Source of the DNA: Anaspis maculata
Taxonomy: Eukaryota; Arthropoda; Insecta; Coleoptera; Scraptiidae
Length of the DNA stretch: 64,000 bases
Assembly (NCBI GenBank): GCA_949128115.1
Contig: OX421964.1
Coordinates: forward strand, 4,588,001 to 4,652,000
Direction of reading: 5' to 3'
The notes under the pieces are model-generated. The model did no database searches and had not been told where the DNA came from. It was given only the letters and a program-made list of their open reading frames with translations. Both the position numbers and the translations under genes were made by a program. Below are positions 2,626 to 43,241 of this stretch, one piece after another. Every line of letters starts with the position of its first letter. Position 1 is the first letter of the stretch.

Positions 2626-2694
2626 GTGATAGAAGGATGTCAAACTATCCGCCTCCCACGCCGAATCTTACACCAACCCCAGGAAGGCAACCTG
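2626..2694 (+). CDS. Locus 1 microexon 1 (69 nt, phase 1-1)
   Basis: The acceptor ...GAATTTTCTAG ends at 2625 and the donor CCTG|GTGAGT follows 2694. The encoded unit is GDRRMSNYPPPTPNLTPTPG then RQP. It belongs to the 23-codon subtype shared with exons at 7134, 7864 and 8828. The frame upstream of the acceptor has a stop (TGA near 2604), unlike the sister copies, which supports the TAG acceptor as the true exon edge rather than the more distal CAG near 2572. Confidence 0.6.
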
Positions 2695-5600
2695 GTGAGT
2701 TTTTTGTGATTAAAAAGGTAACAAAAACAACTTTTGGAAGTGGGATAAGAAAACTTGCTTCTACCGCGATAACTTTCCTAATTGAATATATCAACCAGGA
2801 GGCTTCCACGATAGCACTGGAAAATGCGGACAAATTGCTTTTGAGATATGTCCAGCATATTTTCCAATGACAGATGTAATGGGGATTATATCCAATCTGC
2901 CACTCACTATCTGCGCTTCACTAATGATTCAAAATTGATGACATCTAGTAATTGATATGCATGATTACGAGCATGATTATTTTCATTCAACTTCCAACTA
3001 TCAAGGAAGAACAATAATTTGATGAAAGTGATCCAAACAAGGCATCCCTCAAATGTTTGGAAAACAGTTTCCGTCTAATATAGCTTTCATTCAATTCTAT
3101 AATTATACAAGGTGTCTCAAAAGTATCCAAGTTCCAAGTCCAGAGCTTTATAGTTCCACTCAAGAACACCAGAAAAAAAAATAGAAAAACCAAATGACGT
3201 TTAGTTTTAAAGTTTTCACGACTAAAGGGTGAAAACTCGCCCCCTTCCCCATTTTGATTATCTGAAGTGATTTTGATGAACTGTTTGTGACTGAACAGTG
3301 AAAACCATCAACCACTTGTTGTGCACTGAATTTTGTTTCATGATACAGGGTAGGGTTTCTGCTTCACTTTTATTTTAATATTCAAGCATGTTTTCACTAT
3401 AAGCGCGCCGTCTATAGCTTAAAAATTTGTTTATGTTCGAATTATTAGAATGTGACGAGATTTTTGGGGTTCATGGCCTAATCGTGGGTCGAGGGGCGAA
3501 AGGAAATATTATGTCTTTTTGCCGAGGAGCGAGGAGGTGCTAAGCACCTTGCGCAAGAAATGCTGAGGGACTCGCTCTGTATCTGGCGGTCGGAGAGGTG
3601 TTGTTTGTTTGTGTATACCCATGGTACGTACGTTTATAAATTGATGTCTGTACTAATTTCGTCTCGTTTTTGAACATTGCATTGAGTTTTGAATGTACCT
3701 CAATCATCATTTCTTGGGGTAGTTTACATTTTTGTCTGATAATTTTTGAACGCACGCATCATTTTCTGGTGGCTATTTATAATTCACACGGAGTATGTCT
3801 TTGTCTAAGCCCTGTGCACTGTTTCAAGTTTCACCTTGTATGAATTTGAGCTTGTTTATTCACATTTTATGTCATTATTTCGATGATGATCATGTCATTT
3901 CTTTTGTGTGAAATTTGTCTGTTATGTACTCACACAACTGTAATTTTTGTACGCCGTATTTTGGTCTGTGTCATGCTTTGATTTTCATGTAAATTTAATG
4001 TCAATTGTCCTCCGTCTATTTTTGTGGCTTTATATTTTTTTATGTCATTTTGATGCTTACTGCTAATTTGGTCAGATATTTGATATATCCATGTATTTTT
4101 CACGATCCCCATCGATATTTTATCATTGCTGATTTTATTATACTTTGTGGATTTGATTCCTTGTTGAATTTTATACATTATCTACTGATGTTTTCACTTG
4201 TGTTTACTGATGTTCCTTCGATTTTGTTTCACTAATTTCACGTACATTGAATACCTGAAATTATCAGTGAGTCGCTAGTCATTTTGTCACATATTTGAGT
4301 CTTCTTCTTCGGGCTTAACTTGATGGTTTGTTTGACGTGGTTCTTCCATTTTGTGCCTTGTTTCCGAATCCGTCACTTTGTCTTTTCTTTGACTGACAGT
4401 TTTGGCATCTTGTTTTTGTTGTGTTTCAATTGTTTTTATTGTGTCAGTCCTGTGTTCGGTGTTTTGGGAAAAGAATCATGAAAGAACTATTTTGCACTTA
4501 TTTTGCTTGAGTAAGTGTAAATTTCTGTGCAATGAGCGTGTTTTATTGAGCTCCTTCTTCTCTCCCTCCGAGTCGTCTTACTCCTGAGCAAAAGCGGATC
4601 GTAGGGTTTTTAGAAGCGGATTTGAACGCGGGCACAACGAAAACAAAAACAGGCACAATGGAGGGTTCCAGATTCCAAATTCCAGATTTCAGACGATCGC
4701 AAACAGGCTAAATGAATGTCATGTCAGGGGGGTAGGGGGAGTATACACAACAGGTGGGTATTGGATCACGAAAATCCAGTCCTCTTCAATTATGTCTCCA
4801 AAATATTCCATTGGTCTCTGAAATAATTAGGAACATAATTATGACCTTTTTCCTTGCCACAGAAGAATTTTCAGTAGTGTTTTTGATGGAAAATGAGTTT
4901 TTATCATTTATGAGTCCCCCTTCATATTATTAGAATTTCGGTGCACACCTACTGATTGATCACCTTCACTGATGAGTCTATCATAAATTCATAAACAGCT
5001 CCCCAGAATGAATTTACTTAGGAAATAAACTTCACATTATCCCAAGATGAACGGACAAGTTGTCTTGATCAATCTCCACGCATCATAGAAACTGCTGTTA
5101 AGTGGCTTTAGAAAGACATCTGGCGTATTTTACAGTAACAGAGATAATGGGGATGATATCCATTCTATGACTTATGACCTGTTCCACTAGAAATCAGAAA
5201 TTGATTGCATCTTGTCATTATTATGAATGATTATTCTCATTCAACTGCCAAAAAAGACTTGGTACAAATGGACGATACTGATTGAAGCAAGCAGCTAGAT
5301 AACCATCTTTCTTCTGTTTTTTTTTTCAGGCGATATGAACTATCCGCCTCCCATGCAAAACTATCCACCTCCCATGCAAAACTATCCACCTCCCACGCCG
5401 TATCTTTCACCAAACTCAGGGAACCAACTTGGTGAGTTTTTCATACAACAACTTGTAACAAAAAGCACAGCCCTTGAAAGTTTATATACGTTTATATTAA
5501 GTATAAAGCTATATTATCAAATTATCATAGTGTTAGCCCATCTTTATTGTGTTACCAACTTTCTTCTAATTTTCTAGGCGACAGAATGTCAAATTATCCG

Positions 5601-8600
5601 CTTCCTATGCCGAATCCTACACTGAACCTAGGAAGCCAACTTGGTGAGTTTTCCATCTAACAACTGTAACAGAAAACACAGCCCTGAAAAGTTTAATAGG
5701 AAGAGTTGATTTCACAGCAATTACTCTCTCAACAAGATAGGTATATTCACCAGTTGTCTTGATAATTTTAACAAAAGCATAAAAAATTACAGACAAGTCG
5801 CTTAAAAAAAATATACAGGGTGTTTCGAAAATTAGTGCCATCTTTTCCACCCCTGATTTAGATTTCCAAAATATGAAGATTGTGCTATTTTTTATTTTTC
5901 AAAAGTGCCCCTGAAAAAAGTTACAGGCCTTGAGAGTTCAATTTTTTAAATCGTTTTTCATTCATAACTTCTACACAGCTGGGCCGATTTTGCCTAAATT
6001 CCAACCAGAGTGTGCTGAAATACGTCTCTATTAAACAATGATGGCGTATTTGAACAAAAGTTCCCAGTGGCGTAGATAGTGAGGGGTAGCTCCTTCCCCC
6101 CCCCACTTTCCACGTCCCTGAAGATTTTCCAAAACAGATTCCATTTTTAGATTACTGATTCAATTTTCAAAAAAAAGTTTATCCCGCAAAATTTTGATTT
6201 TGCTTCATTTTTGGAATATTTGAGTTTGAAACTTTGAAAAACATCTCGTAATCGCCACTTTTCAGGGCCCAGATTATTTTTTCCTGAAAAACTCCATGTC
6301 TCATAGCAAAAATTGTGGTTTATCAACTTAAAACACCTGAAAAACTTATTTCAGTTGAGAAATCATGAGTTTTCTTGCATTTCAATTTTTAATTTTCTGA
6401 AAAAAAATGTTGGACCCTGGAAAGTGGCGTTTCTGAAATGTTTTTCAAAGTTTCCAACCCAAATATCTTGAGAATGGAACCTCTAACCAAAATTTTGCAG
6501 GAGTAACTTTTTTTCCAAATTGAACAAGAAATCTAAAAATGTAATCAATTTTGGAAAATCCTTAGAGGCGTAGGGAGTGGCGGGGGAAAACGGAAGCTAC
6601 CCCCCGCTATTCACGCCACTGGGGACTTTTATCAAAATACGCCATCATTGTTCAATAGAGACGTATTTCAGGACACCATGGTTGAAATTTGGACAGTATC
6701 GGTTCAGCCGTATTAAAGTTATGATTGAAAAACGAATTTAAAAATTGAACTTTGAAGGTCTGTATTTTTCTTAGGGGCACTTTTGCAAAATAAAAAAAAA
6801 GCACAATCTTCCCCGCAATCTTCATATCTTGAGAATCTGAATCTGAGGTGGGAAGGATGGCACTTATTTTTGAAACACTCTGTATGGCCTATTTCCCAGT
6901 GTCAAAGATAATGGGGATGATATTCATTCTACTGCCTGTTATTGGCGCCACTTGAAATTCGAAAATGTGATCATTTGACAAATCTGGATTTTCACTTAGG
7001 TACACTTTCTGGGACTCAATCGACTCATAATAATTACAACTGATAATTCCTGAAATAAAAATGATACTTTCTGAACTACAGCTGAGAAAGTTCAAAATTA
7101 TTGGCAAATGTGAAGTTCGAATGAATTTTCTAGGTGACAGGAGGATGTCAAACTATCCGCCTCCCACGCCGAATCTTACACCAAACTCAGAAAGGCAACC
7201 TGGTGAGTTTTTTGTAATCAAAAAGGTAACAAGAAAACAGCCCTTGGTGGTGGGATGAGAAAGCTTGGTTCTCCCGTGATAACTTTCCTAATAAAATATA
7301 ATTAACCAGGAGGCTTCTACGGGAGCACAAGAAAATGTAACCAACTTTTTTTCAATTTTCTAGGCGATAGGATGTCAAACCATCCGCCTCCTATGCCGAA
7401 TCCTACACCAAACCTAGGAAGCCAACTTAGTGAGTTTTTTATCTAACATCCTGTAACAAAAAGTACCGCCCTAGGAAGGGTAATGGAAGACTTGTTTTTA
7501 CCGCAATAACTTCCTTGATAATAAGATATACCTATACATCGACCAGTTGTCTTGATAAATTCAAACGGAAGCATAAAAAATTACAGACAGACAAGTCGCT
7601 TTTAAAAAAACATGTGGCGTATTTCCCAGTGTTAGAGATAATGGGGATGATCGATATTCATTCTACGGCCCATTATCGGTGCCACTTAAAATTCGAAAAT
7701 GAGATCATTTGACAAATCTGGATTTTCACTCACACTTTCTGGAACTCAATCGACTCATATAAATTACTACTGATAATTCCTGAAATAAAAATGATACTTT
7801 CTGAACTAAAGCTGAGAAAGTTCGAAATTATTGGGAAATGTGAAGTTCAAATGAATTTTGTAGGTGACAGGAGGATGCCAAACTATTCGCCTCCCACGCC
7901 GAATCCTACACCAAACCCAGAAAGGCATCCTGGTAAGTTCTCTATGATCAAAAAGGTAACAAAAAAAAAAGCCCTTGGCAGTGAGATGAAGAAATTTGGT
8001 TCCCCCGCGATAACTTTCTTGATACAATATATTAACGAGGAGGCTTCTACGAGAGCACAAGAAAATGTAACCAACTTTCTTTCAATTTTCTAGGCGATAG
8101 GATATCAAACTATCCGCCTCCTGTGCCGAATCCAACACCAAACCCAGGAAGCCAACTTGGTGAGTTTTTTATCTAACACCCTGTAAGAAAAAATACAGCC
8201 CTGGGAAGGTCAATGGAAGACTTGTTCCCACCGCAATAACTTCCTTAATTATAAGATATACCTATACATCAACCAGTTGTCTTGATAAATTCAAACGGAA
8301 GCATCAAAAATTACAGACAGACAAGTCGCTTTTAAAAAAACATGTGGCGTATTCCCCAGTGTTAGAGATAATGGGGATGATATTCATTCTACGGCCTATT
8401 ATCGGTGCCACTTAAAATTCGAAAATGAGATCATTTGACAAATCTGGATTTTCACTTACATTTTCTGGAACTCAATAAATAAAATAAATAAATAATTTAT
8501 TTTACTCATTTGACCGAGACAACAGTGTGACAACAGTCGGGGAGGAGAAAAGACTATGAGTTACACTTAAATAACACAATTTAACAGGTATATAGAACAA

Positions 8601-11600
8601 ATACATACACAAATTCACAACAATGTATACTTATTATTGAACAAGTACAACAAGTTCAACAAGTGCCTACCAATCGCAGGCCAAAAAAGGTCAGGCCAAA
8701 AAGATAAGGTCAATCGACTCATATTGATTACAACTGATAATTCCTAAAATAAAAATGTTACTTTCTGAACTACAGCTGAGAAAGTTCAAAATTATTGGCA
8801 AATGTGAAGTTCGAATGAATCTTCTAGGTGACAGGAGGATGCCAAACTATTCGCCTTCCACGCCGAATCCTACACCAAACCCAGAAAGGCAACCTGGTAA
8901 GTTCTTTATGATCAAAAAGGTAACAAAAAAAAACAGCCCTTGGCTGTGGGATGAGAAAATTTGGTTCTTCCGCGATAACTTTCTTGATACAATATATTAA
9001 CGAAGAGGCTTCTGCGAGAGCACAAGAAAATGTAACCAACTTTCTTTCAATTTTCTAGGCGATAGGATATCAAACTATCCGCCTCCTGTGCCGATTCCTA
9101 CACCAAACCCAGGAAGCCAACTTGGTGAGTTTTTCTATCTAACACCCTGTAACAAAAAATGCAGCCCTAGGAAGGTTAATGGAAGACTTGTTTTCACCAC
9201 AAAAAACAAAGTGGGATCCTGGATATCTGGATTATTAGCAGAATATCATATCAATCATTTTCTCTCGCGTAAAGTCATTTTTCTTTGTTCGACATGATTC
9301 AGACTGACTAACTGAGAGTTGCGTACTATTTGGCTTGTCTGTCATTCATCACGACCAGCTCAATTTGTGAAAAAAAAACCAAAAAATTACAAATTTTGTA
9401 AAAATTTCCGATTATCTCAAAAAAAATTGAGTTCAAGGGTAAGGTACCCCCAGTAAAAATAGAAGAAGATAAAAAAAGCTATCAGATAACGTTATAAAAT
9501 TATAGGCATGCTAGTTGAAAAAATGAGTTATGAGACTTTGAAAATTATAAAGTTTGATTTTTTTTTGTGAAGGCCCTGTATCAAGAAATCGCAATTTTTT
9601 GACATTGAGATATTGGTCTTTGACTTGACTATCACCATGTTAAGCATCATCTCTTAGTTTCGGAAAGCAAGGCCGCTACGATTTTTTCAAGATAACTGTG
9701 GAAATGCGTTTTTTTCAGTTTTCAATTTTTAGTTGGTAGCACTGTCACACAATTGGAAAACAAAAATACAGGCATATGACAGTTGAAAATGATGAACTCG
9801 GAAATGCAGAAAAATATAGGGTGTTCCATTCAAAAAAATCAACGTTTTGTTGATCCCGTCAAGCTGGAAATAATTATAGGTTATAGGTCTTAATCAACCA
9901 TATAACTTCTTTCCCATATTTTTTTCTCTACCTTGAACGGTAAGACCGCTATGGGATAATTACGCTAGGATGGACCAGCCTGTATGTATGGACATACTTG
10001 ATACAGAGAAACACAGATGAATAAATACTTCACACTGTGACAAATGAATAAACTAATACGATACACAGCCATAGAGTGAGGATAAGCCTGCAAACCTCAC
10101 TAAGCTGTTTGAAATTATTCTTGAAGTGTATAGAACTCATTAGACTGTGAGTGGTGTTTGACTTTACTTTTGAAGATAGAGAAAGTTTTTTGCATTTCTA
10201 ATCTCCAACGGCAAGTGATTGAACATTTTTGCAATTCGAAAACAAGTACATCTTGTATCGTCTTGTATTCAAAATGTGTGATTATTCTCATTCAACTCTC
10301 AAGGCAGAACCACAATTTGACGATATTGATTGGAGCCAGGCAAATCGTTTGAATGTTGAAAAACGATTCGAGTATAAATAGTCTAGGCTCAATTTTTGAA
10401 AAGTGCTCTCTAAACTGTGTTCAGCGGCATGGAAAGGTTACCGGTTGGCGATAAAATTTTCAGACTAATTCGATCCAGCTGGATTCGAAAATCCCGGTTT
10501 CCAGAACAAAAAATGGTGCCTTCTGGGGCGGAGCCCCTATTTTCGTCAATTTTTCCAATTTCAAGTTTTTCCAATTTTTTGCGTTCAACCAGCTAGAAGT
10601 CGAAAACCATAGTAAATACGGCAAATTTTTCCACATAGTTCTAATGCTGGGTAATTTTTCAAGCGTTCAGAACAGTATTCATTTTTCAAATGTTCATAGT
10701 TGCCTTTCCAAATCATTAGAAACCCAAGAAGTACAAAAATATGATACAAAAACTTCGACCTATGGGGAACTACATCAGTTTTTTAAAATAAGTCCATACA
10801 AATGCCAGATCATGTGTGGAGAAAACTTTCAAAAATATTTTGGGAAAGTTTGGTTGCTCCAAAACTCACAGTTGAGGAGTTATAAATTTTTCAATCAACA
10901 GGCAACAGGCAGGTATAGCCCAGTCAATCTAGACTTTATATCATAAATACCGAGAACAAATTCGCTCAAAGCTGATTTTCAGTCAAGTGAGTCCTTAGAC
11001 CATGAGAACTCAGTAGAAATTTTCTCGGACTTTCCCGCGTGTGCTTCATGGTCTTCCAGGTCTTTGAATGTTTTGAGTCGCTGTAAATTGCAGTACTCGC
11101 CTGGAATTCGCAACACGGCACGGCCGCAAAAATGATCAGATTGAGCCCGAACGGGTCTCAAACGAAAAAAAGTAAGTCATAAAATGTCTTACGATGCATA
11201 TGACTAATGGCGGGCCACTTCCGGTAAACGCGGAGCCAGCCAAATTCAAATTTTTGCACCTCAGTCAAATCAGTACGGGGAAGAGAGTAAAAAAATCGTC
11301 ACAACCTCGGAAAAAACATTGGCGTCCTAAAAATTTGGAATTCTGTTTACAACTGAATGCCCTATTACTTATTCAAAATCTGCAAAAATCGCACCTCGGG
11401 GTTCTGAGTGATTGGAGAACAGGGTTGGAAAATTGCAACTCAAAGTGGAGGGGATGAAATTCTTCAATCCATTGGAAGCAAATACGTCGTAATTCAATGT
11501 ATCACATCATGTTGATACTATTTTGGCATAAAAAGTGTCGATCATTGTTGAAGGGGAGTCGGAGAGGGGGGGGGGAAGCGAAGCCCGGCTAGGTGGCTCT

Positions 11601-14600
11601 ATCTGTTTTCCAGGCCATATAAAACCGATCACGACAAGTTTGGTATCGTTTCCGACTAAATTCAATCTCCTGAACTCGAATCTGATGTGTAAATTTGAAA
11701 AAAAAAAGCTCAAACAAGTTAACTTGAAAGAAACTTGTTTTTTATTTGACAATTTCTATAGACGGTTCAATCACGCCACACTGCTTTTGGTAACCTTCCT
11801 TAGTGCATAAAAGATTAAATTTTTTAATATTAAAGGGTCAACGGGAGAGAATTAGCCCCTAGTATTTTGGTTACTTTAAGGTATTTCGAAACAAAGTTTA
11901 GGAAAAATAATCAGTGATCCATTCGTGAAACAAGGTGCATGAGACAAGAAATTCATTATACTAGGGTGGTGGGTCATAAATCATGAGAATCTACTTTTCC
12001 TCAGAAGAACTAAGGTGCATAAATTCGAGTAGTTTTTGAACCGATATAGACCACAAGATGACTAGGTCATTTATACAGCAACGAAGATTGCCAAAACAGC
12101 ATTGCATTGCAGTTTAGCGTAATTTTTCATAGACACCGTGAGAAATTGAATATCGCCCCTACGACTCACACCCGACGCTCGCAGGCCAATTTCCCTGGAA
12201 CTACGGCAGATACGTGAAAGTGATACCTACGCATCTTTTTTGTAGACAATTTGATGGCCTTTTATTTGAACAAAACCGTTTTCCGATGGGATCGCTATTT
12301 ATGGAGATAATTGGAAGAAATACTCAATTACACCAATAATCCAAGATGGCGCCGACTCTACACCTCCTATATCGATGAGTACTTTTTACACAATAATCAA
12401 CAAGCTCTCGAAATCATCTACACGATTTATTTTCGCTATTTTTTCCTCGTTGACTGGGCTAAATAGGTAATTTCATGCTCTTTGACTCACACTGCCTCTG
12501 ACATATTGATAATTTTATCCAGATAAAGTGTTACTGCTGTTGTTTAGTATCACCCGATCTGAAAAAATACACTTGGAATCATGAAAATTGTGAACAGAAT
12601 CGAACTGAACAAATTTTTTTTTTCTGTTTCTGGTTCCTAGTAAAATCATAGTGCTAGAACAATTACCATGGGAAATGTATAGCTTGCATTTAAAACCAAT
12701 TCCAATTGACCAGGGGAGTTCAAAAACCTAAAAAATGACACTTAAATTGTAATCCTAGGACTCCTAGAACCCTGAAACAAGACATTTCCGGTTTACTTGC
12801 TCCTTGTCCGCCATCTTGGATTTTGAAGCTTCCGGTAAAGTTTTTGAAGTGGAAACCGCGATTTTCATATTCAGCGATGTCGAATTAGTCTATAACGTCA
12901 TGTTGTCAAACAATAATAGTAAATGCCGCTGAACTCTCTTGATTTTTGTTTTGTGCCTAGTCTAAAAATGAATATAAGTTTATATCATAGCTTTATTGTG
13001 GTGTGAACCCATATTAGGTAGCCTCCTTGCTTCTTATTTTCTAGGCGATAGGATGTCAAACCATCCGCCTCCGAAACCAAATCCTACACCAAACCCAGAA
13101 AGCCGACCTGGTGAGTTTTTTATAGCAAAATGTAACAAATAACACATCCCTTGAAAGTGTGATGGAAAAACTTGGCTCCCCTCAATCCCGCAATGCAGTA
13201 AATCGAATTTTAGAAAGTCTCAAGTGTAATTCAGATTTGTAAAATGAATTTCAGGAAGTGTCATCTGCAATCCAGACTGGTCAATTGTATTTCAGAGAGC
13301 GTCAATTTATCTTCAGAAAATCTCAATTGTTGTTCGGCCGTGTCAATTTTGATTCAGAAAATTACATTTGTAGTTCGGAAGAAACAGTTACAATTCAGAT
13401 TGCATTTTTTTACAAATTTTGTTAAGACAGTTGTATCATTTGTATTTCAGAATAATCAATTTATTCACAGAAAGCGTCAATTGTAATTCAATTTTGTTGA
13501 ATGAAATTTCAGAAAGCGGTTATTTTAATTCCGATTTTCCAAGTGCAATTCGGCAAATGTCAATTGTATCTCAGAAAGCGTCGAATGAAATTCCGAACAG
13601 TACATTGGACACACCGATCACACGCCTCCGGTGAAGATAATATTCTCCACCTTCTGCACTCTCTCTACTCTTGACGTTCAATATAATTGTGTCCACGTGA
13701 CTCCGAAGTGGTATTGGTGAAGATGGATTGAGAGTGTTTTATGTACATGATGTAGGTTCATATTATTCAGTTTTTTAGGACTATCCCTAGATAAGGATTT
13801 CTTTTGGTGGCCATCGATCTGTGGCGTCAGAATTTTTTTGAACCGTTTTAAAAATTTTCCGGTCCACCAGCTTACAAGAAAGGTAAGTACTGTGATTGCA
13901 CTTGAATCTAAATTACAAAAAATTGACGCTTCCTGAAGCACAATGACTCATCTGAATGGAAATTGCTTACATCACCTGAATTACGATTCATTTCATCTGA
14001 ATTCAAATTGAACTTTTCTGAAGTCCATACTGAAGTTACAACTGAGAAATCTGAGCCACAAATGACGCCTTCTGAGAATTATTCGACATGTCTGAATCAC
14101 CACTCACACTTCCTGAAGCTAAATCGACTCATAAATTACAACTGATCATTTCTAAATTAAAATGACACTTTCTGAATTATAGCTGGAAAAGTTGTAGTAA
14201 TCCGAAATTGATGACATCTTCCCATTCCCAGATCCATGATCATATATTGTGATCATTTAGATCATAGATAATATGAGTATAGCTTTTCGTGAATAGTATA
14301 TTGTAGGTACCTATGTAGTATGAACCCAAACTAGGTAACAACCTTTCTTTCAATTTTCTAGGTGATAGGAAGACGTCAAACTATACGCCTCTTACACAGA
14401 ATCCTACCCCAAACGTAGGAATGCAACTCGGTGAGTTTTTTGTATAAACAAGGTAACAACCCTAGTGGAAATGTGCCCCCTTAGTCACATTCCCATGGGT
14501 ACGTTGAGCACATCCTCATTGTGCACATGAGTACATTGAGCATATTTCCATGGTAGTTATGGTACACATGGGTAGGTACATTGGGCATATCTCCATGGTG

Positions 14601-16704
14601 CACATGGGCACATTGGCCATTCGAAATGTGCTCATATGGGCACATTATGGGCACATTTTCACTAGAGAAAAAACGAACCTTGGAAGTGGAATATAAAAAC
14701 ATGGTTCTAACGCGATAACTTCCCTAATTAGATATACCTATCAACCAGTTGGCTTCTACTGAAGCATGGGAAAATGCAGATAAATTGCTTCTGAGAGATA
14801 TCTAGCATATTTTCCAGTAACAGGTATAATGGGGACTATATCCATTCTACCACCTACCTACTGTATGCGCTACTTATTATTCGAAACTGATGACATCATG
14901 TCGTTGATAATATGCGCATAATAATTTTCATTCAACTACCAAGGAAGAACCTTCATTTGATGGAACTGATTGGAGCAAGCCACCCCTGAAATATTTGGAA
15001 AACAACGTATAATATACCCATACCTAGTTTTCATTTAATATTTATATCATGCAGAGTATCTCAAAAGTATCCAAGTTCCAAGTCCAGAGCGGTATCCAGA
15101 ATCCACTCAAAAACACTTGAAAAATTCTTGGAAAAAATCACTGACGTGATTTATTATAATTTATATTTATATTTATACGTCAAAGGTCAGAATTCGCCTC
15201 CTCCCCTATTTTAATTATTTGAAGTGATTTTGATCAACTGTTCGTGATGGAAGGAACAGTAAAAATCTACAACTAGTGGTTGTGCACTGAATTTGGTTTC
15301 ACGATACAGGGTGGGTGATAACTCACGAAAATTGACACTTCTCCAATTATGTCTCTAAAATGTTCCATTGGTCCCTGAAATAATCTAGAGCATATGACCC
15401 TTTTCTCTGTTACAAAAGAATTTTCAGTGGCGTTTCTAAAAAGAAATGAGTTTTTGTGATTTATGAGCAACCCTTTATATAAAATAGAATTTCAGTGCAC
15501 ACCCAGTGATTGATAACTTTCACTGATTAGTCTACCTACTATAAACAGCTTTCCAGAATCACTCCACTTACGAATTGAACGTCTCTAATTTTCAAGATGG
15601 AAGAAGCGTGGAAATATTCCCACTGACGGAACAAAATAATGACTTTCCGAATGAAAAGTACATACTAGAAAAAGGTAGATTTTTTTTGATGCTGGTACTG
15701 GAGAACTAAAATAATATAGCGAAACACTGTGTCTACAGCTTCCATTTCTGGAGAAAACTACCGCCTTCTGGTATGTACTTTTCATTTGAAAAGTCATTCG
15801 TTTCGTCAGTGGAAACATTTTCACACTTCTTTCATCTTGTAACTGAGTCGACGGTTCTAAGAAAAAAACACTCACTAACTTTCTAGATATTTTTTTCGTC
15901 TTTTTGAGTGGATCCCATGCGTTCTGGACTCGGAAAACAATACTTTTGAGACACGCTGTATTATGACAATATGTACCAATATCACATTGCCAGTTTTTTT
16001 TAAATTTTCTAGTAAGTGTGATGCCAGAATACAGGCCTGATAGAATCGACCTAGGTGAGTTTTTTCTTATAACAACCTGTAACAAGAAATACAATCTTTG
16101 GAAGTTTGGTGGGAGAACTGAGTTTTCCGCAATAACTTTTCTTGTAACGATCATCGATCTTTCTTATAAGATGATGGAACAATTGGAGGTGAACTGCTTT
16201 CAGAAGATTTCTGGCGGATTATCTATTACCGGAGAACATGGAGATGATAACTATTTCACCCTCCATTATTCTGCGCCCCTAGTACCTAACTTGAAACTGA
16301 TTGTATTTTGTGAATCAAGCATGATTATTTTCGTTTCATTTCCAAAGAAGAAACACAATTTGACATCATGTTTGGAGCCAGCATTCGTTTGGAGGGGTAA
16401 ACCACTAATGGAATTCTTGTACACCGGTTTCCAATGATTTTTAAGTGATGATGATTCCCGATCATTCCAGATGATTTCCAATTATTTCCATGGAAGTGTA
16501 CCCCAGATTTCCAAGATGGTTCACCCCTCGATTCGTTTTAATGTTTAAAAAACCATTTGCGTACGATAAGGATATGAGTTGAAACTATAGATATAATGTA
16601 ATATGAACCTTGACTACATTACTATATCTTCCTCAAAATTTCTAGATCAGGTGCCAAACTTTTTGCCTAGCATGCCGAATCGCATGACAAAACTACAAGG
16701 TTAA
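2626..16704 (+). CDS. Proline-rich microexon gene, locus 1 (multi-exon span, 5' end not found)
   Basis: Thirteen short exons on one strand join in frame, each starting with the last two bases of a codon and ending with the first base of the next. Joined they give 882 nt, open until a TAA in the last exon at 16702-16704. The product is built from a 22-23 residue unit, GDRxSNYPPPxPNPTPNPGSQ, repeated about eleven times with drift. It is low in Cys and hydrophobic residues, so an extended extracellular or disordered protein is likely. No first exon with a start codon and signal peptide was found between 1 and 2625, so the 5' end probably lies upstream of the window. Every exon keeps an acceptor and donor, and synonymous differences coexist with a conserved frame, which argues for coding use. 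I do not recognise the family. Pseudogenisation of part of the array is possible. Confidence 0.6.
3108..5030. mobile_element. Partial copy of the 15.05 kb palindromic element, split by an insertion
   Basis: 3108-3350 matches 15050-15310 (GTCTCAAAAGTATCCAAGTT and onwards) and 4755-5030 matches 15312-15570 (CAATTATGTCTCnAAAAT). Between them lies 3352-4750, absent from the second copy. The right-hand inverted arm present at 15880-15962 is missing here. Confidence 0.6.
3352..4750. mobile_element. About 1.4-kb insertion with strong T-over-A asymmetry
   Basis: Comparison with the uninterrupted copy near 15310 shows this block is an insertion at a CAGGGT|GGGT site. It is very T-rich on the + strand, with long runs of T-biased sequence at 3780-4460, so the minus strand is A-rich. 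No protein family was recognised in it. A similarly T-rich block occurs at 48450-48800. Confidence 0.45.
5330..5431 (+). CDS. Locus 1 microexon 2 (102 nt, internally triplicated)
   Basis: The acceptor is a long T-tract ending in CAG at 5329 and the donor CTTG|GTGAGT follows 5431. It encodes GDMNYPPPMQNYPPPMQ, then NYPPPTPYLSPNSGNQL. The heptad NYPPPMQ is present twice and a third NYPPP follows, so the exon grew by two extra 21-nt units while keeping phase 1-1. It is the longest exon of the array. Confidence 0.6.
5578..5643 (+). CDS. Locus 1 microexon 3 (66 nt, phase 1-1)
   Basis: The acceptor AATTTTCTAG ends at 5577 and the donor CTTG|GTGAGT follows 5643. It encodes GDRMSNYPLPMPNPTLNLGS then QL, the 22-codon subtype. 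It lies 146 nt after the previous exon. Confidence 0.6.
5812..6886. repeat. Long palindrome with CAGGGTG end (centre about 6349)
   Basis: The left arm starts TATACAGGGTGTTTCGAAAA and the right arm ends TTTTGAAACACTCTGTAT. Intermediate blocks (TTAGTGCCATC, AAAGTGCCCCTGAAAA, GCTGAAATACGTCTCTAT) reappear inverted with scattered mismatches. Arms are about 535 bp. It has no coding capacity and is probably a non-autonomous transposon. Confidence 0.8.
7134..7202 (+). CDS. Locus 1 microexon 4 (69 nt; first exon of module copy 1)
   Basis: The acceptor TTTTCTAG ends at 7133 and the donor CCTG|GTGAGT follows 7202. It encodes GDRRMSNYPPPTPNLTPNSE then RQP. The intron just upstream happens to be open in the same frame, so a read-through frame begins at 7061. 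The short pyrimidine tract at this acceptor is a common property of the 69-nt subtype. Confidence 0.6.
7364..7429 (+). CDS. Locus 1 microexon 5 (66 nt; second exon of module copy 1)
   Basis: The acceptor TTTCAATTTTCTAG ends at 7363. The donor is CTTA|GTGAGT after 7429, with the usual final G of the exon replaced by A. It encodes GDRMSNHPPPMPNPTPNLGS then QL. The A ending would turn the next junction codon from Gly to Ser without shifting the frame. Confidence 0.58.
7864..7932 (+). CDS. Locus 1 microexon 6 (69 nt; first exon of module copy 2)
   Basis: The acceptor is TTTTGTAG, a C-to-G change from the family TTTTCTAG, ending at 7863. The donor is CCTG|GTAAGT after 7932. It encodes GDRRMPNYSPPTPNPTPNPE then RHP. 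It starts exactly 730 nt after its counterpart at 7134. Confidence 0.58.
8094..8159 (+). CDS. Locus 1 microexon 7 (66 nt; second exon of module copy 2)
   Basis: The acceptor TTTCAATTTTCTAG ends at 8093 and the donor CTTG|GTGAGT follows 8159. It encodes GDRISNYPPPVPNPTPNPGS then QL, the cleanest example of the consensus unit. It is 730 nt after microexon 5. Confidence 0.62.
8476..8712 (-). mobile_element. 3'-end fragment of a non-LTR retroposon inside module copy 3
   Basis: The insertion splits CTCAATCGACTCATA of the module and begins with AATAAATAAAATAAATAAAT, an A/T tail read on the minus strand. CTCAAT and GGTCAAT flank it as a probable target duplication. TTTGACCGAgACAACagTGT matches a second copy near 21297. 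Confidence 0.55.
8828..8896 (+). CDS. Locus 1 microexon 8 (69 nt; first exon of module copy 3)
   Basis: The acceptor ATCTTCTAG ends at 8827 and the donor CCTG|GTAAGT follows 8896. It encodes GDRRMPNYSPSTPNPTPNPE then RQP. The distance from microexon 6 is 964 nt, which is the 730-nt module plus a roughly 234-bp retroposon insertion at 8476-8712. Confidence 0.6.
9059..9124 (+). CDS. Locus 1 microexon 9 (66 nt; second exon of module copy 3)
   Basis: The acceptor TTTCAATTTTCTAG ends at 9058 and the donor CTTG|GTGAGT follows 9124. It encodes GDRISNYPPPVPIPTPNPGS then QL. It differs from microexon 7 at very few positions, indicating a recent duplication. Confidence 0.6.
9300..13040. other. Long intron of locus 1, no further exon seen
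   Basis: Apart from the module remnant at 10235-10345 this AT-rich stretch shows no array-type acceptor-donor pair and no recognisable protein. The frames at 10644-10946 and 11194-11457 have no domain. It may hold old transposon sequence that I cannot classify. Confidence 0.45.
10235..10345 (+). repeat. Orphan intron module remnant without an exon
   Basis: GATTATTCTCATTCAACT, followed by AAGGCAGAACCACAATTTGA and a GATTGGAGC block, matches the far intronic part of modules at 2970-3035, 5225-5290 and 14925-14985. No adjacent microexon or splice pair is present. It looks like the leftover of a module whose exon was deleted. Confidence 0.55.
13045..13110 (+). CDS. Locus 1 microexon 10 (66 nt)
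   Basis: The acceptor CTTATTTTCTAG ends at 13044 and the donor CCTG|GTGAGT follows 13110. It encodes GDRMSNHPPPKPNPTPNPES then RP. It is separated from microexon 9 by about 3.9 kb of repeat-bearing intron. The donor is followed by the family sequence TTTTTTATA and then a CTTGAAAGT block, as in other copies. Confidence 0.58.
13200..13610. repeat. Inverse-orientation copy of the TCTGAATTACAATTGAC array
   Basis: Units such as TCAATTGTAATTCAG, CAGAAAGCGTCAATTG and TTTCAGAAAGCG recur every 20-30 nt. They are reverse complements of the array at 13930-14190 and 2270-2600. Together with the latter array they could form a long imperfect hairpin. Confidence 0.65.
13800..14190. repeat. Direct duplicate of 2140-2590
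   Basis: The segment starts with GGTGGCCATCGATCTGTGGC and continues into the AATGACTCATCTGAAT array in the same order as at 2140-2590. The intron copy precedes microexon 11 as the first precedes microexon 1, extending the exon duplication to at least 400 bp of intron. Confidence 0.65.
14362..14430 (+). CDS. Locus 1 microexon 11 (69 nt, diverged)
   Basis: The acceptor TTTCAATTTTCTAG ends at 14361 and the donor CTCG|GTGAGT follows 14430. It encodes GDRKTSNYTPLTQNPTPNVG then MQL. There are several replacements relative to the consensus but the frame and both splice sites are intact, as expected under constraint on frame. Confidence 0.55.
15055..15962. repeat. Palindromic element with nested hairpin
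   Basis: The left arm TATCTCAAAAGTATCCAAGT...CCACTCAAAAACAC reappears inverted at 15885-15960. A second hairpin at 15620-15812 has CACTGACGGAAC and GAAAAGTACATA repeated inverted as TATGTACTTTTC and CGTCAGTG. The 189-codon minus-strand frame here is an artefact of this repeat. Confidence 0.65.
16013..16054 (+). CDS. Locus 1 microexon 12 (42 nt, atypical)
   Basis: The acceptor AAATTTTCTAG ends at 16012 and the donor CTAG|GTGAGT follows 16054. Phase 1-1 is kept. It encodes VSVMPEYRPDRIDL, which lacks the PPP core but keeps Pro and the final Leu before the donor. The downstream intron matches the module introns (GTGAGTTTTTT, then a CCTGTAACAA block), so this is a shortened paralogue of the same unit. 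Confidence 0.5.
16646..16704 (+). CDS. Locus 1 microexon 13, probable terminal exon with in-frame TAA
   Basis: The acceptor AAAATTTCTAG ends at 16645. Reading in phase 1 gives DQVPNFLPSMPNRMTKLQG and then TAA at 16702-16704. A family-type donor CCTG|GTGAGT is still present after 16708, which would make a 63-nt symmetric exon containing the stop. An AATAAA occurs at 16822-16827, so the exon may end the transcript. Alternatively the shorter donor AAG|GTTAAC after 16699 skips the stop and leads to a last exon at 19314. Confidence 0.45.
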
Positions 16705-16992
16705 CCTGGTGAGTTTTTCATACAACTTTTGAAAATTTGATGAAGAAACTGGGCTTTTGCGCAACAAAGTTCCCAATAACAATTATTGACCAGTTGTCTT
16801 GATCTCTTCCACAAGAGGATGAATAAAATAGCGGAAAAGTTGCTTCTGTATCTGGCGTATTTTCCAGCAACAGAAATTATGCATGGAGATGATAATATAC
16901 ATTCTACCAAACCTATTGTCTCCGCCACTAGCTGTTCGAAATTGATTGCAATCAATATGCATGATTATCTCTATTCAGCTACCAAAAAAATA

Positions 16993-19313: not shown

Positions 19314-19351
19314 AACTCTTCAACCAAAACCAGGTGAAAAATCACAAATAG
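19314..19351 (+). CDS. Candidate alternative terminal exon of locus 1
   Basis: The acceptor TTTCTGTTCAG ends at 19313. Reading in phase 1 gives ELFNQNQVKNHK and then TAG at 19349-19351, with AATAAA at 19476-19481. It follows directly after the 17.0-19.2 kb palindrome. Only the splice signal, a compatible phase with a stop and the poly(A) signal support it. It has no sequence resemblance to the array, so confidence is low. Confidence 0.25.
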
Positions 19352-19499
19352 GAGAAGTCGGAGGCTTCAAATTTGCAACATTTGAATATCCCAGAATGTT
19401 GGTAAAGTTGGGACAAAAAGGACCTTCCGTCATCCAATGGAAAACTTTTATCTTCTTAATAACTAAGTATTTGTTAATAAATTGTTTCTGAAATATGTC

Positions 19500-22718: not shown

Positions 22719-22763
22719 ATGGCGAAAATTATCATCGTGTTCGTTTTTGTCTTGGCGGTTGCA
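22719..22763 (+). CDS. Locus 2 exon 1: signal peptide
   Basis: It encodes MAKIIIVFVFVLAVA, a textbook secretory signal: a basic residue at position 3, an 11-residue hydrophobic core and an A-V-A ending suited to signal peptidase. The donor GCA|GTAAGA is strong. The upstream context AAATCAACATGG is favourable for initiation. Confidence 0.7.
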
Positions 22764-25700
22764 GTAAGATGATCTGTATTTTATTTTTTCAATCTTCAAA
22801 TTTCCTGCCGGCATTGGCATATTTACCTCAATTTTCGTTTTCTTTTTGCACAGCATAACAGCGCAGCCTCAAAGATCCAGAAGAGAGCTGAAGGTAAGAA
22901 AAGTATACTTTGAAAATGAGACGCTGCAGATAAACACTTTTTGACAAATTCCAAATGACACATGATTCCAATATTGACAAGCAACAACTGTGAATTGGAT
23001 GGCACTTTTCACGAGCTGTATTCTTTTTGGATGAAAAAAATCAGAAATTGTCGATGCTTTCTTTATTTTATTGAACTTTTTGCATGATGTTAGACCCTGT
23101 CTCATCAAACCTGCCATGAATACCATGATACCTACCTTATGTCATTCAAATTTTGCTCATCTGGAGAGAATCGACAAAAAAGGGAGCAAAAAAGTATTAA
23201 AGATTTCCACTGAAATTCCTTCAACATTTCATTAATCTTCTGCATTCTGCATCATCTTTCAGCCATTCCAAGAGCTGGCTGCTCGAATTTGTATTTTTTT
23301 TTCCTAATTTTGGATGTTTGTCCTTCCACAGATCTGCAAGAGGCGTTGGAGATCTTATCCAGATGGTAAGTGCGACATATTATTCTCATTCTACAAAAAT
23401 AATTGGGCGCCAGGGCAAAAGAGGCAGCTCAATCACATGGTTTGGTGGAATCAAATTGAGTGATGGTGAAAGCGCTTTATTTCGTGAAGCAAGAAATGCT
23501 AAGATCCCCTTCCTTTTACAACATTTGATGCTTATGTGTGGTGGTCAGCGCATTCGACTACCACTCCAGAGGTCGCGGGTTCGATCCCCACCTGGGACGG
23601 ATTTTCGCCTCGAAAACAAGCTTCTCTGTTCTGTTGGAATGCTTGCTAAATGCAAGACGTGTCGCATAGCACGTAAAATACGATCGATGGTGCCGACCCT
23701 TTGCGATGTTGGTGGTCGTTAAAAATCCCCACTCTGTGTTGGAACAAACAGGAGTTCGGCAAAATTTCCGGTATAGTGGAGCAAAGCATTCACTGGCGTC
23801 GGTGTTAGGCCTCGTTGCGGAAATAGGCTGACATTGATAAACGAATAAAAAAAGTCATCAGCTAGAAGTCCAGAGGGAAAAAGCCCTATCTATTTTAGCA
23901 ACGCTGCCTACCCAAAAGTCATTCGACGAAATGTTTCTCATTTCACGTTGACTCATTATATTTTATTCATGTTTTGTTTCAATAAACTACTTTCACACCA
24001 CAAAAAATTACCAGTGATATTAGGTGTCTGACAACATTTGAGAAACTTTCATTGGGCTTAAACTATCAGAATTATCTCTATGTCGAATATTCAGAATTTG
24101 GGCATTGGCCCTATCCTCCCGGATAGTATTGACTCACTACTCAATCTTTGCATTTTCTACCTGATGTTGCATCACCTTTTGTTGACACCTCAAATTTTTC
24201 CCTCATGTTAACCCATAAAGTCATCTGTTCACTCCGAACACGTCTCTGGCCTCTAACTCGAAGCTCGAACTTGGCGTTGAAGTTGAACAAGTCTGAATAT
24301 ATCCAATAACTATTCATCCAAACCAACTGTATTGAACCTCCAATGAATTGGTATGAAATACAGCAATAAATGCATAGTTGATTTATTGTGAATTACACAC
24401 AGACAAGAATAATACTTTAATAAGAATCCAAATTAATAATCAGTATTACATTATCAGACCTTGTATGTTTATAAATAAAGTCGTACATATAATTTGTCTT
24501 TCCACGTAAATTGTATATGTATATTTTGCTGACGCGTTTCGGCTTCACAATTCGGGGTGAAGGACCATCTTCAAAGCAATAAAGGTGTAAAATGTATGAA
24601 GTGTCCAAGTCCTAATTCCTACAAGACACAAGAGAATCCCTAAACATTCACGATATTGTTTGTTTATGTCGTAAGTACAGTTGTCATTGATTCAATTTTA
24701 AAGTTACTTCCATCATGAGTTGGGTTCTCTTTGGCTGTTTAGGTTTGTTCATAGGAATTGATTGAAACCTATTTGATGAACCGATAGCTGAACCTTCATG
24801 CCGAATAAACTATCTATACATTATTCATCATATCATCATTGATGTCATTCAACTAATACCTGTTAGCATGATATTAAATACCTAATTATTGATTTTATTA
24901 GTCGAGCAATATCTATCTGTACCCGTTATTCGAACAACTTCATTTGTTTTTACTATTCAAACAACCTTCTATTATTTTTAACACTATCTATTTGTAGTTT
25001 TATCCAAAGCGATCGCATAATTTCAACAATAAAGGCCAACACAAGTTTTGCAATTTTAAGAATTGGTAAAATTTAAGCTTGTGGCCCATGAGTCACTTGG
25101 TGCAATCAAGAAATGTAGATAGGTACACGACGTGTAGCGCAACACCAAATGATGGGATCAATACATCGTACGCATTCTACATATTTGGCATTATCGAGAT
25201 ATTTATTGAATAAGTGCTTCCCGCACGGTGCTCTTGGGTATCGATCTATCCTTCGATTTGCAGTGCTGATTTTATAAACCACACATAAAAGCCTTGTGTG
25301 GCGCCCGCTTTTTGCCCGAGCATAGCCTATCGATTTGTCTTGCCTTGCCCACCAGCGTTTGATGCGATGAGTGGTAAATTTAAAAATAGACGCCACAATT
25401 GAATATGACAAATCAATTTCTATAACTCATGCCACCACAGCTCTTCATTTCGAACTTTTTTTTCAGGGTAGGAGATTTTACCTTTTTTGAGGCTCATCAT
25501 GGAAGTCCAAGCGCGTCTGCTGATGACCCCGGTGAAAGCATGCAGGCCCAAGTAAGTTATAGTGTTAGTTCAAATTAAGCAATCAATCAACCACATAATT
25601 ATACAGCTACCAATCAGGTATGAAATACGAAAATACAAACATCAACGTTCAAGGAAGCTCCCAAAGTGGATTAAAAGTCGAGGGCAAACCCGAGAAGCAA

Positions 25701-27146
25701 CGGCCTCGACGTCTCTACTGTCTATTATTATCACGCAGTTTTTTTTCCCACAGAAGCGCCAGTTCATGGGGGGATATGGGATGTCCCCATCTTACGCTGC
25801 TCAAACTCACCCTCCTTATGGCTATCACTCGGGCTATGGAGCTATGGTAAGTAGTAGATCTGACTTGAGAATAAGTAACTCACGAAGCTCAGTTAGTTAC
25901 GTGTTACGTGCATAAATTGAGGTCCCTTTTCACGTTCAGTGTTGATTAACAATGATGTCTCAGCTGATCAATGATCAATGAAGAAGGCTGGGTTAGGTAC
26001 TAAGGATACGGTGAAATCGCCGTAAAGCTGTGGACCATCACTCAAAAGATACGTTCATTGTAATAATAATCAGTTCCTGATGAACCAAGTGAATTGGTAA
26101 AATCTTCCATTTTGGCATTGCAAGCTTGGCAAAAAATTTGACATTTTACACATTTTTCAAGTTTTATACGTATGATTCGGTAAGCTCTCGTTAATGTTCA
26201 TTGACAATTGTTTTAAATTAATTATATAATAAATTTCAGCCTGACGAAGCCGATGCTAATCGACGAAACGTTGCGTAAAATATACAATTTCACTGTTTTT
26301 TTACCATCCTGCCCAAAAACCAAAAAAAAAAATTCATATACAAACAAATCCAAGGACAGAGAATATACAACATTATCAAAAATTATCTTGGTCAAGGGTG
26401 GTGTCAAAATGGCAAACATTGACAGTCACACCAATTACACGGCTGAAGAGTATCTATCTTATTTGTTATGTTCGATTAGTTGATTACCAATCCCGTCTCG
26501 TGAGGTATAGAACTCTTTTTGTCTCTCGGGAGCTTCAGAGGCCATTTCGAATTTGTGAGGGTACCAAACGGTTACGTGATCAAAAGCTTTAATAAGACTT
26601 CTGGAGTCTTTTTTGTTTTGTTTGGTCACCAGTACTGTTTTGTAAAAGTCCCCCATTTGAGGGCTTTTTCATGTTTATAACAGGCGTCAGTGCCGTGGAG
26701 TGAAGTGTAGAGCCCTATTTTACCCTTGGGAGTCTTCAAGCATCCTCTCTGTTCTGTGAGCTAAACAAACACCCTGTACTTACCTACATCAGGCAGAGTC
26801 CATCATTTATCAAGGCGTATCATAACGTCGCATCTGTTTCGCGCTATAAAAAATATCTCGTTAAAACAAGATAATGATTTGAGACATGCTGCAGTTGATA
26901 AAGTGCACGCGTAATCAAATATTTATCAATGTCATCAAATTCAAATATTTTATAATGAATTAGTAGATGGTGTAAGTTTATTATCATTTCAAATTGTTAT
27001 TTCATGGAGAAATTTTCAAGGCATCTGCTCCCATGGACAACGGCTTCCATCCTTCCTATTACTACGTACCAATAAAAAAACCACCAAAAGAGAAGGAAGA
27101 GAAGGACAAGGAAGCGAAAAAAGGGGCTCCAGGAAAAGGTCTGTGA
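22719..27146 (+). CDS. Six-exon gene for a small secreted Gly/Tyr-rich, Lys-tailed protein (locus 2 span)
   Basis: Six exons at 22719-22763, 22854-22893, 23332-23365, 25467-25551, 25754-25846 and 27021-27146 join to 423 nt, giving 140 residues and a TGA, with consensus splice sites and compatible phases (0, 1, 2, 0, 0). The order is a signal peptide, a short segment with a KR pair, a helical-looking acidic stretch, a Gly/Tyr/Pro-rich middle and a Lys/Glu-rich basic tail. The product is probably secreted. The start is the first ATG, directly before the hydrophobic stretch. I do not recognise the family; salivary, cuticular or adhesive proteins have such composition. No clear AATAAA follows the stop closely, so the last exon may instead splice on to locus 3. 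Confidence 0.65.
22854..22893 (+). CDS. Locus 2 exon 2 (40 nt)
   Basis: The acceptor CTTTTTGCACAG ends at 22853 and the donor GAAG|GTAAGA follows 22893. It encodes HNSAASKIQKRAE. The KR pair is a possible propeptide-processing site. It enters in phase 0 and leaves in phase 1. Confidence 0.62.
23332..23365 (+). CDS. Locus 2 exon 3 (34 nt)
   Basis: The acceptor TCCTTCCACAG ends at 23331 and the donor AGATG|GTAAGT follows 23365. It encodes DLQEALEILSR and two bases of a Trp codon completed by the next exon. It looks amphipathic and helical. Phase is 1 in, 2 out. Confidence 0.6.
23535..23857 (+). mobile_element. tRNA-derived SINE in intron 3 of locus 2
   Basis: A pol III A-box-like TGGTCAGCGCATTCG is followed at the expected distance by a perfect B box, GGTTCGATCCC, about 23579-23589. 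The tRNA-like head continues into a tRNA-unrelated body of about 230 bp and an A-rich tail near 23847-23856. The tRNA cloverleaf is too degenerate for a functional tRNA gene. Confidence 0.8.
24527..24576 (-). ncRNA. Hammerhead-like ribozyme motif, Penelope-type (candidate)
   Basis: On the minus strand TTGAAGA is followed by a hairpin GG..CTTCAC / GTGAAGCC and then GAAACGCGT. The order core-stem II-GAAA is that of a hammerhead with a very short stem III, the kind known from Penelope-like elements. One core base departs (T for C at the start). Stem I could not be established. Confidence 0.35.
25467..25551 (+). CDS. Locus 2 exon 4 (85 nt)
   Basis: The acceptor TTTTTTTCAG ends at 25466 and the donor CAA|GTAAGT follows 25551. 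The frame fixed by exons 1-3 stays open: W, then VGDFTFFEAHHGSPSASADD, then PGESMQAQ. The other possible frame hits TGA within 30 nt, so the open phase match is meaningful. Confidence 0.6.
25754..25846 (+). CDS. Locus 2 exon 5 (93 nt), Gly/Tyr-rich
   Basis: The acceptor TTTTTTCCCACAG ends at 25753 and the donor ATG|GTAAGT follows 25846. It encodes KRQFMGGYGMSPSYAAQ, then THPPYGYHSGYGAM, in phase 0-0. The GYG and PPYGY motifs resemble structural or adhesive secreted proteins, but this is compositional only. Confidence 0.65.
26241..26275 (+). ncRNA. Hammerhead-like ribozyme motif, Penelope-type (candidate)
   Basis: CTGACGA, stem II CGAT-GCTA-ATCG with one weak pair below it, then GAAACGTTGCGTA. 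The last part gives a 3-bp stem III (ACG/CGT) with loop TTG and a U16.1-type T before A. It matches the minimal hammerhead core. Stem I is weak and the flanks are AT-rich. Confidence 0.4.
27021..27146 (+). CDS. Locus 2 exon 6, terminal or bypassed by a GTCTGT donor
   Basis: The acceptor AATTTTCAAG ends at 27020. It encodes ASAPMDNGFHPSYYYVPIKK, then PPKEKEEKDKEAKKGAPGKG and L before TGA at 27144-27146. An alternative end is AAAAG|GTCTGT after 27138, which leaves phase 1 and would join the locus 3 exon at 43212 as KKGAPGK-DPPRPAPESS. C at donor position +3 is unfavourable, so the stop is the default reading. Confidence 0.6.
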   Translation, partial: ASAPMDNGFHPSYYYVPIKKPPKEKEEKDKEAKKGAPGKGL

Positions 27147-43211: not shown

Positions 43212-43241
43212 ATCCCCCCAGACCGGCTCCGGAGTCATCAA
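43212..43241 (+). CDS. Locus 3 microexon 1 (30 nt)
   Basis: The acceptor GATTTTCCAG ends at 43211 and the donor TCAA|GTGAGT follows 43241. It encodes DPPRPAPESS when joined to a phase-1 G. It is Pro-rich like locus 1 but not homologous to it. Confidence 0.5.

Follow-up and report, generated by a model that had tools for sequence, protein, structure and literature searches.

Vertebrate tropoelastin is built from small, in-frame cassette exons, all of one phase, which together specify a secreted, disordered protein. The PEVK arrays of titin, an intracellular muscle protein, likewise consist of many small in-frame exons, here with local exon duplication, and their product is proline- and charge-rich as well as disordered. 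In the micro-exon genes (MEGs) of schistosomes, as described in PMC5825161, ~80% of the coding region consists of symmetric exons that are just 6-36 bp long. Bicycle genes possess internal exons that mostly start at codon position 2, with homologues, among the 22 species treated in PMC9168663, reported from aphids, a phylloxerid and coccids only. Some bicycle proteins, according to PMC13041983, are without cysteine. No description of a beetle micro-exon gene family was found among the papers listed in searches of open-licence full text.

The locus considered here is found on chromosome 4 (C4, OX421964.1; 95,735,550 bases) of Anaspis maculata, a false flower beetle. This is, as its genome note has it, a saproxylic, flower-visiting species whose larvae take fungi and wood fibre and also scavenge, and whose genome was annotated using BRAKER2 in protein mode. 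The window, i.e., the whole stretch of DNA that was analysed, is 64,000 nt long, and it was studied as part of a 264-kb stretch (C4:4,498,001-4,762,000) with positions in the latter prefixed R, such that window position p is R p+90000. Genome-wide searches covered the 757.8-Mb assembly. That assembly includes a mitochondrial contig, C50 (16,310 bases), with COX1 and, around it, an ARAGORN tRNA order of I-Q-M-W-C-Y-L-K-D; among its reading frames ND2, COX1 and COX2 could be identified by eye. A second contig, C48 (31,570 bases), holds COX1 twice, with one of the copies truncated where the contig begins, and would seem to be a mitochondrial dimer that stayed in the assembly along with C50.

An earlier note on the window had placed 13 exons of 42-102 nt at 2626-16704, all of one phase and all with a common unit. 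All 13 could be located. Each lies between an AG acceptor and a GTGAGT or GTAAGT donor, and 12 of them are multiples of 3 that are open in phase 1-1. The thirteenth has an in-frame TAA and thus is not symmetric. The common unit, of NYPPP..PNPTPNPGSQ type, was recovered in the first 11 exons, with the twelfth and thirteenth having diverged (Table 1). Nor is this array confined to the window. A single iteration of an nhmmer profile built on the exon and its flanks adds 15 cassette-class exons upstream, reaching as far as C4:4,568,765 (R70,765), ~19 kb, for 27 intact cassette-class exons in what is termed here unit A (15 upstream of the window and 12 inside), a count which leaves out the copy at R88905, whose 3' half and donor are gone, and the TAA-bearing copy at 16646. 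The latter may be a terminal exon or instead a decayed cassette. In unit A, copies of cassette plus intron are 92% identical over 300 nt. Just ahead of the window's first cassette, at 1-2000, GC is 0.515 versus about 0.37 around it, and a low-complexity, repetitive reading frame is found there.

Unit A is accompanied by two paralogous units in tandem, B and C, all three being on the + strand and together spanning ~233 kb, as measured from a first signal exon at R25,379 to the furthest exon observed in unit C at R258,084, with unit C continuing beyond the 264 kb. These units probably represent three paralogous protein-coding genes, clustered in tandem, with modular products that are predicted to be secreted and disordered. 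The best reading, that is, would be of a family of such predicted proteins which is private to this locus. Homologous blocks of units A and B are largely colinear, through and around both arrays, with the unit B array found by nhmmer at R181,272-188,582 and consisting of 9 intact cassette-class exons. The unit B counterpart of the last intact unit A exon (SVMPEYRPDRIDL) is GVMPEYRPGGSDP. A third copy of the leading blocks is seen at R191.9-195.5k, i.e., unit C, which then continues with an array built from another exon, PTDPPLPSEID, of 36 nt. At least 13 cassettes were listed there by script, leaving out a fourteenth similar stretch near R231524 whose donor has changed to GATGAG. The earlier note's notion of a modular gene of symmetric phase 1-1 microexons, multiplied in frame, is borne out in these arrays: in units A and B, the 36 intact exons of cassette class are all stop-free multiples of 3 in phase 1-1 with an AG acceptor and a GTGAGT or GTAAGT donor, and all 13 of the listed unit C cassettes are stop-free multiples of 3 in phase 1-1 as well. 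In best-candidate searches of the whole genome, unit A cassette DNA yielded at least 17 matches (17 of 17 in the cluster) and unit C cassette DNA at least 19 (19 of 19 in the cluster), with no further close copies among these elsewhere in the genome. Between units B and C, stretches of 742 and 308 nt (window 55887-59134; L024:673-1704) are 98.7-98.8% identical, with most other B-C blocks only roughly 65-82% identical, and these stretches may be either a recent insertion or a gene-conversion tract.

Table 1. Putative exons of units A and B located in the window, given as window positions.
Feature	Position	Strand	Remarks
Unit A cassette exon	2626..2694	+	69 nt, phase 1-1, DRRMSNYPPPTPNLTPTPGRQP; nhmmer E 6.6e-34
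Unit A cassette exon	5330..5431	+	102 nt, phase 1-1; NYPPP x3 internally
Unit A cassette exon	5578..5643	+	66 nt, phase 1-1; nhmmer profile
Unit A cassette exon	7134..7202	+	69 nt, phase 1-1; nhmmer profile
Unit A cassette exon	7364..7429	+	66 nt, phase 1-1; nhmmer profile
Unit A cassette exon	7864..7932	+	69 nt, phase 1-1; nhmmer profile
Unit A cassette exon	8094..8159	+	66 nt, phase 1-1; nhmmer profile
Unit A cassette exon	8828..8896	+	69 nt, phase 1-1; nhmmer profile
Unit A cassette exon	9059..9124	+	66 nt, phase 1-1; nhmmer profile
Unit A cassette exon	13045..13110	+	66 nt, phase 1-1; used as genome-wide query
Unit A cassette exon, diverged	14362..14430	+	69 nt, phase 1-1; nhmmer profile
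Unit A last intact phase 1-1 exon, diverged	16013..16054	+	42 nt, SVMPEYRPDRIDL; nhmmer E 3.3e-10
Diverged cassette, TAA in frame at 16702-16704	16646..16708	+	nhmmer E 5e-16
Candidate terminal exon of unit A	19314..19351	+	phase 1: LFNQNQVKNHK then TAG
Unit B first exon, putative signal peptide MAKIIIVFVFVLAVA	22719..22763	+	donor phase 0; conserved in A and C
Unit B exon 2, HNSAASKIQKRAE	22854..22893	+	phase 0 to 1
Unit B exon 3, LQEALEILSR	23332..23365	+	phase 1 to 2
Unit B exon 4, VGDFTFFEAHHGSPSASADDPGESMQAQ	25467..25551	+	phase 2 to 0
Unit B exon 5, KRQFMGGYGMSPSYAAQTHPPYGYHSGYGAM	25754..25846	+	phase 0-0
Unit B exon 6, lysine-rich	27021..27138	+	118 nt; if unspliced, stop at 27144-27146
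Unit B candidate phase 1-1 microexon PPRPAPESS	43212..43241	+	upstream flank like unit C cassette flanks
Unit B candidate phase 1-1 microexon	44389..44427	+	39 nt, donor GTGAGC
Unit B candidate phase 1-1 microexon	47738..47812	+	without paralogous exon found
Unit B phase 1-1 microexon QETDGRVPDRPSSKY	47946..47993	+	paralogue of unit A exon
Unit B phase 1-1 microexon APIRYLGRKDNE	49721..49759	+	paralogue in unit A
Unit B phase 1-1 microexon VDESQ	49848..49865	+	18 nt; paralogue in unit A
Unit B candidate phase 1-1 microexon EDREEGPFVQVPEKELRSF	51346..51405	+	DDxYVKIPRS class by eye; script found no paralogous exon
Unit B candidate phase 1-1 microexon	61158..61211	+	without paralogous exon found
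Unit B candidate phase 1-1 microexon PPSVQIPERVIEEL	61798..61842	+	script found no paralogous exon

An ‘exon-like site’ is taken here to be a stretch flanked by a strong acceptor and a GTRAGT donor whose length, within 12-159 nt, is a multiple of 3 and whose phase-1 reading is open. Over the 264 kb there are 85 such sites on the + strand versus 9 on the - strand, with a mean of 5.4 in 20 first-order Markov simulations, though the 85 are sites rather than a final exon list, i.e., 6 of the 36 unit A and B cassette exons fall below the pyrimidine threshold (being missed or represented by a 12-nt tail), and two or more of the entries (R31023, R115754) are in truth a phase 0-0 exon. The window alone has 17 versus 2, and a stricter donor (GTRAGTTYTT) combined with a looser acceptor gives 41 versus 1. 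Lengths not divisible by 3 display no such excess over the 264 kb (6-9 on the + strand, 2-12 on the - strand). The divisible-by-3 class is in excess also when read in phase 0 (56 versus 9) or in phase 2 (38 versus 9), as numerous sites have several open frames, with phase 1 open most often. For 66 of the 85 sites, versus 1 of the 9, there is a paralogous exon in which the frame and the two splice sites are preserved, mis-started and phase 0-0 entries being counted in. The splice-site pattern ATTTTCTAG N50-80 GGTGAGTTTTT, which specifies no exon letters past the last G, has 12 matches in the 757.8 Mb, nine of unit A and three of unit B, with none over the whole genome on the reverse strand or in a reversed control. 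Two sister patterns for shorter exons, matching 5 and 3 times genome-wide (2 and 1 at the locus, respectively), are not locus-specific since three of the five and two of the three fall elsewhere.

Substitutions between copies were assessed by NG86 using exon pairs that were hand-picked and are not independent: 13 A-B pairs give pS 0.222, pN 0.134 and intron divergence 0.282 (pooled dN/dS 0.56), and 10 tandem pairs give pS 0.130, pN 0.088 and intron divergence 0.180 (pooled dN/dS 0.65), with dN over intron divergence 0.42 and 0.46, respectively. For N-terminal exons (signal, exon 4 and exon 5, over three unit pairs) pS is 0.31 and pN 0.18. Constraint is purifying but weak, on what would be a fast-evolving protein, with the N-terminal exons evolving fast too. 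The earlier note had named dN/dS near 1 along with random frameshifts as what would count against a gene, and found instead are pooled values of 0.56-0.65 and exon lengths that differ by multiples of 3 only.

Non-coding tandem repeats that are merely exon-like would be consistent with repeats that take in intron and with the decay of some copies (R88905 without its donor half, 16646 with a stop). They would be consistent also with pN being above pS in 8 of the 23 exon pairs (4 of 13 A-B and 4 of 10 tandem), e.g., R49672/137946 (pN 0.41, pS 0.28) and R69912/176501 (pN 0.16, pS 0). Such repeats nevertheless seem very unlikely given a strand bias of 85 to 9 that is an excess only within the frame-keeping length class, lengths differing by threes, a pooled pN below pS and a conserved signal exon.

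That putative signal exon is the hydrophobic first exon in all three units, encoding MQKMITVFVIVLVVS, MAKIIIVFVFVLAVA and MKEIIIVVVFAVAVA, and it ends in phase 0. Hydrophobic ATG exons number 22 on the + strand versus 21 on the - strand in the 264 kb, so without strand excess, and thus it is three-way conservation, not a hydrophobic ATG as such, which is the distinguishing mark. The phases of the exons that follow chain as 0-1, 1-2, 2-0 and 0-0 in units A, B and C. Exon 5 has three protein-level matches genome-wide, one per unit, a DNA search having given two only. A conserved stretch between exons 4 and 5, KYENTNINVQ.., was excluded as an exon, there being stops in all three frames in unit C. 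Window 23519-23640 resembles a tRNA and includes a GGTTCGATCCC box; it may be a SINE of tRNA origin, and it is present in unit B and absent from the aligned unit A and C stretches. ARAGORN reported 0 tRNAs over the window.

Between the N-terminal exons and the cassettes there are additional small phase 1-1 exons, of 5 to 22 aa, which are conserved between units A and B, e.g., PGLKDDYVKIPRSLLARL and LGGLE. Some of these non-cassette microexons have upstream flanks similar to those of unit C cassettes, and the exon classes therefore may have common ancestry. In the same region of unit B, a Copia-like integrase fragment (DDGTEFCNRGF..HQNDIAERA) is recognisable by eye at window 50100-50970, a related broken copy being found upstream, in unit A, at R52551-52818.

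At the other end of unit A, the call of a terminal exon (Table 1) is provisional because a longer phase-2 frame is also open. A unit B stretch at R189762 is conserved with it (phase 1: LFNQNQMRNYR then TAG), and an AATAAA downstream, at 19476, has a matching place in unit B. Upstream of that candidate exon is a large inverted repeat (window 17496-18700), foldback or MITE-like, with arms of 310 nt (17777-18086 / 18113-18422, 89%), 207 nt (17568-17774 / 18424-18630, 96%) and 73 nt (17496-17568 / 18628-18700, 92%).

The weak join of the gene model is that from exon 6 to the microexons, which requires the non-consensus donor GTCTGT or else a skip from exon 2 (phase 1). In all three units exon 6 is followed by G|GTCTGTG, a possible weak phase-1 donor. 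It is doubtful, though worth entertaining, that each unit contains instead two genes, the first a six-exon secreted-protein gene running from the signal exon to the lysine-rich exon and the second a microexon gene with its own, undetected first exon. Exon 6, if unspliced, indeed meets a stop in three of three units, the sole candidate donor after it, GTCTGTG, is non-consensus, and AATAAA is found downstream of exon 6 in unit A. Against that division, none of the units yielded another conserved signal-peptide exon, the stops that follow GTCTGTG differ in place from unit to unit, and the candidate terminal exon of unit A is 3.4 kb before the next unit's signal exon. If, as preferred here, there is one gene per unit, with the N-terminal exons joining the microexons, then gene A would be about 84 kb long and gene B about 77 kb, and secretion would be likely should the signal exon join the array.

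Unit A cassettes are 26% Pro, 14% Asn and 6% Tyr, and unit C cassettes 36% Pro and 17.5% Asp, with no Cys among 961 array residues from units A, B and C together; this Pro/Asn/Tyr- and Pro/Asp-rich, Cys-free composition suggests disorder. The claim that the peptide is unlike known families held up insofar as 12 exon pieces returned 0 Pfam families at E<=1, pieces of 21-58 aa having low power. Searching with nine concatenated window cassettes returned 4712 candidates, none at E<=0.1, which is uninformative because the query is low-complexity and the database may hold few spliced eukaryote proteins; a PDB search with one exon gave no match, such that no homologue outside of the A. maculata genome was found by the Pfam, one-exon PDB or nine-cassette searches. 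Rfam gave 0 over the window. A serine-protease-like C-terminal domain, suggested by an IGG-like stretch near 19360, downstream of A and B, was dropped; three catalytic-motif patterns had 0 matches in six frames over the 264 kb, with none from Pfam as well.

Tandem, near-identical, Pro-rich units behind a signal exon are also what would be expected of a multi-peptide precursor, i.e., with each cassette freed as a proline-rich peptide, antimicrobial or signalling. Precedents exist for proline-rich multi-peptide precursors. A dibasic pair is found in 10 of the 36 cassette-class exons of units A and B but in neither the other 26 nor any of the 13 unit C cassettes, which leaves this a rather unlikely explanation.

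The earlier note had further proposed an effector role, with the salivary gland as the place to look. That reading was dropped as unsupported, the host being a saproxylic, flower-visiting beetle, neither sap feeder nor parasite, and the 961 array residues being Cys-free. A plant- or host-manipulating effector family like the aphid bicycle genes would have in its favour a signal exon per unit, many small internal exons in the bicycle exon phase and fast evolution. It is highly improbable in a beetle of flowers, fungi and wood whose array residues, with 0 Cys in 961, contain no CYC motif, and whose peptides are low-complexity and Pro-rich versus the helical, saposin-like bicycle folds described in PMC13041983.

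On the preferred reading of three secreted, disordered, modular proteins, each gene would begin with a signal peptide and short N-terminal exons, Tyr/Gly-rich and then Lys-rich, leading to dozens of symmetric phase-1 microexons, some acidic and others amplified as proline/asparagine/tyrosine-rich cassettes. The unit of amplification would be exon plus flanking intron, copied through unequal crossing-over or segmental duplication. Because exon lengths are divisible by 3 and all exons have the one phase, the reading frame can survive the gain, loss or skipping of copies. Tandem growth appears recent in unit C since its 14 cassette stretches share 88-95% identity with a single query copy and mostly lie ~410 nt apart. 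The product most likely would be an extracellular-matrix-like or glandular secretion protein, with repeat number and composition tuned via exon copy number and possibly alternative splicing. More tentatively, and with somewhat less than even confidence, these could be an independent micro-exon system of the beetle lineage, i.e., three ~80-kb genes consisting almost wholly of symmetric phase-1 cassettes, different ones being amplified in A and B than in C, with copy-number change and splicing together giving a combinatorial repertoire of secreted, disordered proteins.

If transcribed, these units would mean that micro-exon gene design can arise outside of parasites and sap-sucking insects, and therefore that an effector cannot be recognised from its exon design alone. 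Near-identical copies of cassette plus intron keep successive steps of exon amplification within one locus, such that the origin of symmetric exon arrays becomes testable across haplotypes and sister species. Genes so designed may be overlooked by protein-guided annotation, which is how this genome was annotated.

The likeness to schistosome and aphid genes that the earlier note had drawn stands in terms of small, symmetric exons of one phase, and fails for the bicycle CYC motif and for MEG exon size. As with bicycle genes, there is a putative signal exon, small internal exons are numerous and almost always begin at codon position 2 (true of 36 of 36 intact unit A and B cassette-class exons), evolution is fast and the sequence is orphan. 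Unlike bicycle genes, the arrays are Cys-free and have no CYC motif, their peptides are low-complexity and Pro/Asn/Tyr-rich, their cassettes are amplified and near-identical, and the host is a beetle rather than an aphid, phylloxerid or coccid, the groups reported in PMC9168663. Missing Cys by itself does not exclude membership, which was rejected on account of the absent CYC motif. As with schistosome MEGs, much of the coding sequence resides in short symmetric exons, the product is secreted (here, predicted to be so) and the sequence is orphan, but the A and B cassettes are 42-102 nt versus 6-36 bp, only those of unit C being 36 nt, and the host is a free-living insect. To our knowledge there is no sequence relationship between MEGs and the beetle units, and we know of none with tropoelastin. 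The titin PEVK arrays resemble these units in their many small in-frame exons, Pro- and charge-rich product (for the beetle, with disorder predicted) and local exon duplication; titin is intracellular, whereas the beetle units have no Pfam domain in 12 exon pieces and do have a putative signal exon. Tropoelastin shares with them small, one-phase, in-frame cassette exons and a secreted, disordered product, as predicted for the beetle. The beetle locus differs from tropoelastin in that whole genes are tandemly repeated and in that its cassettes are recent, near-identical copies.
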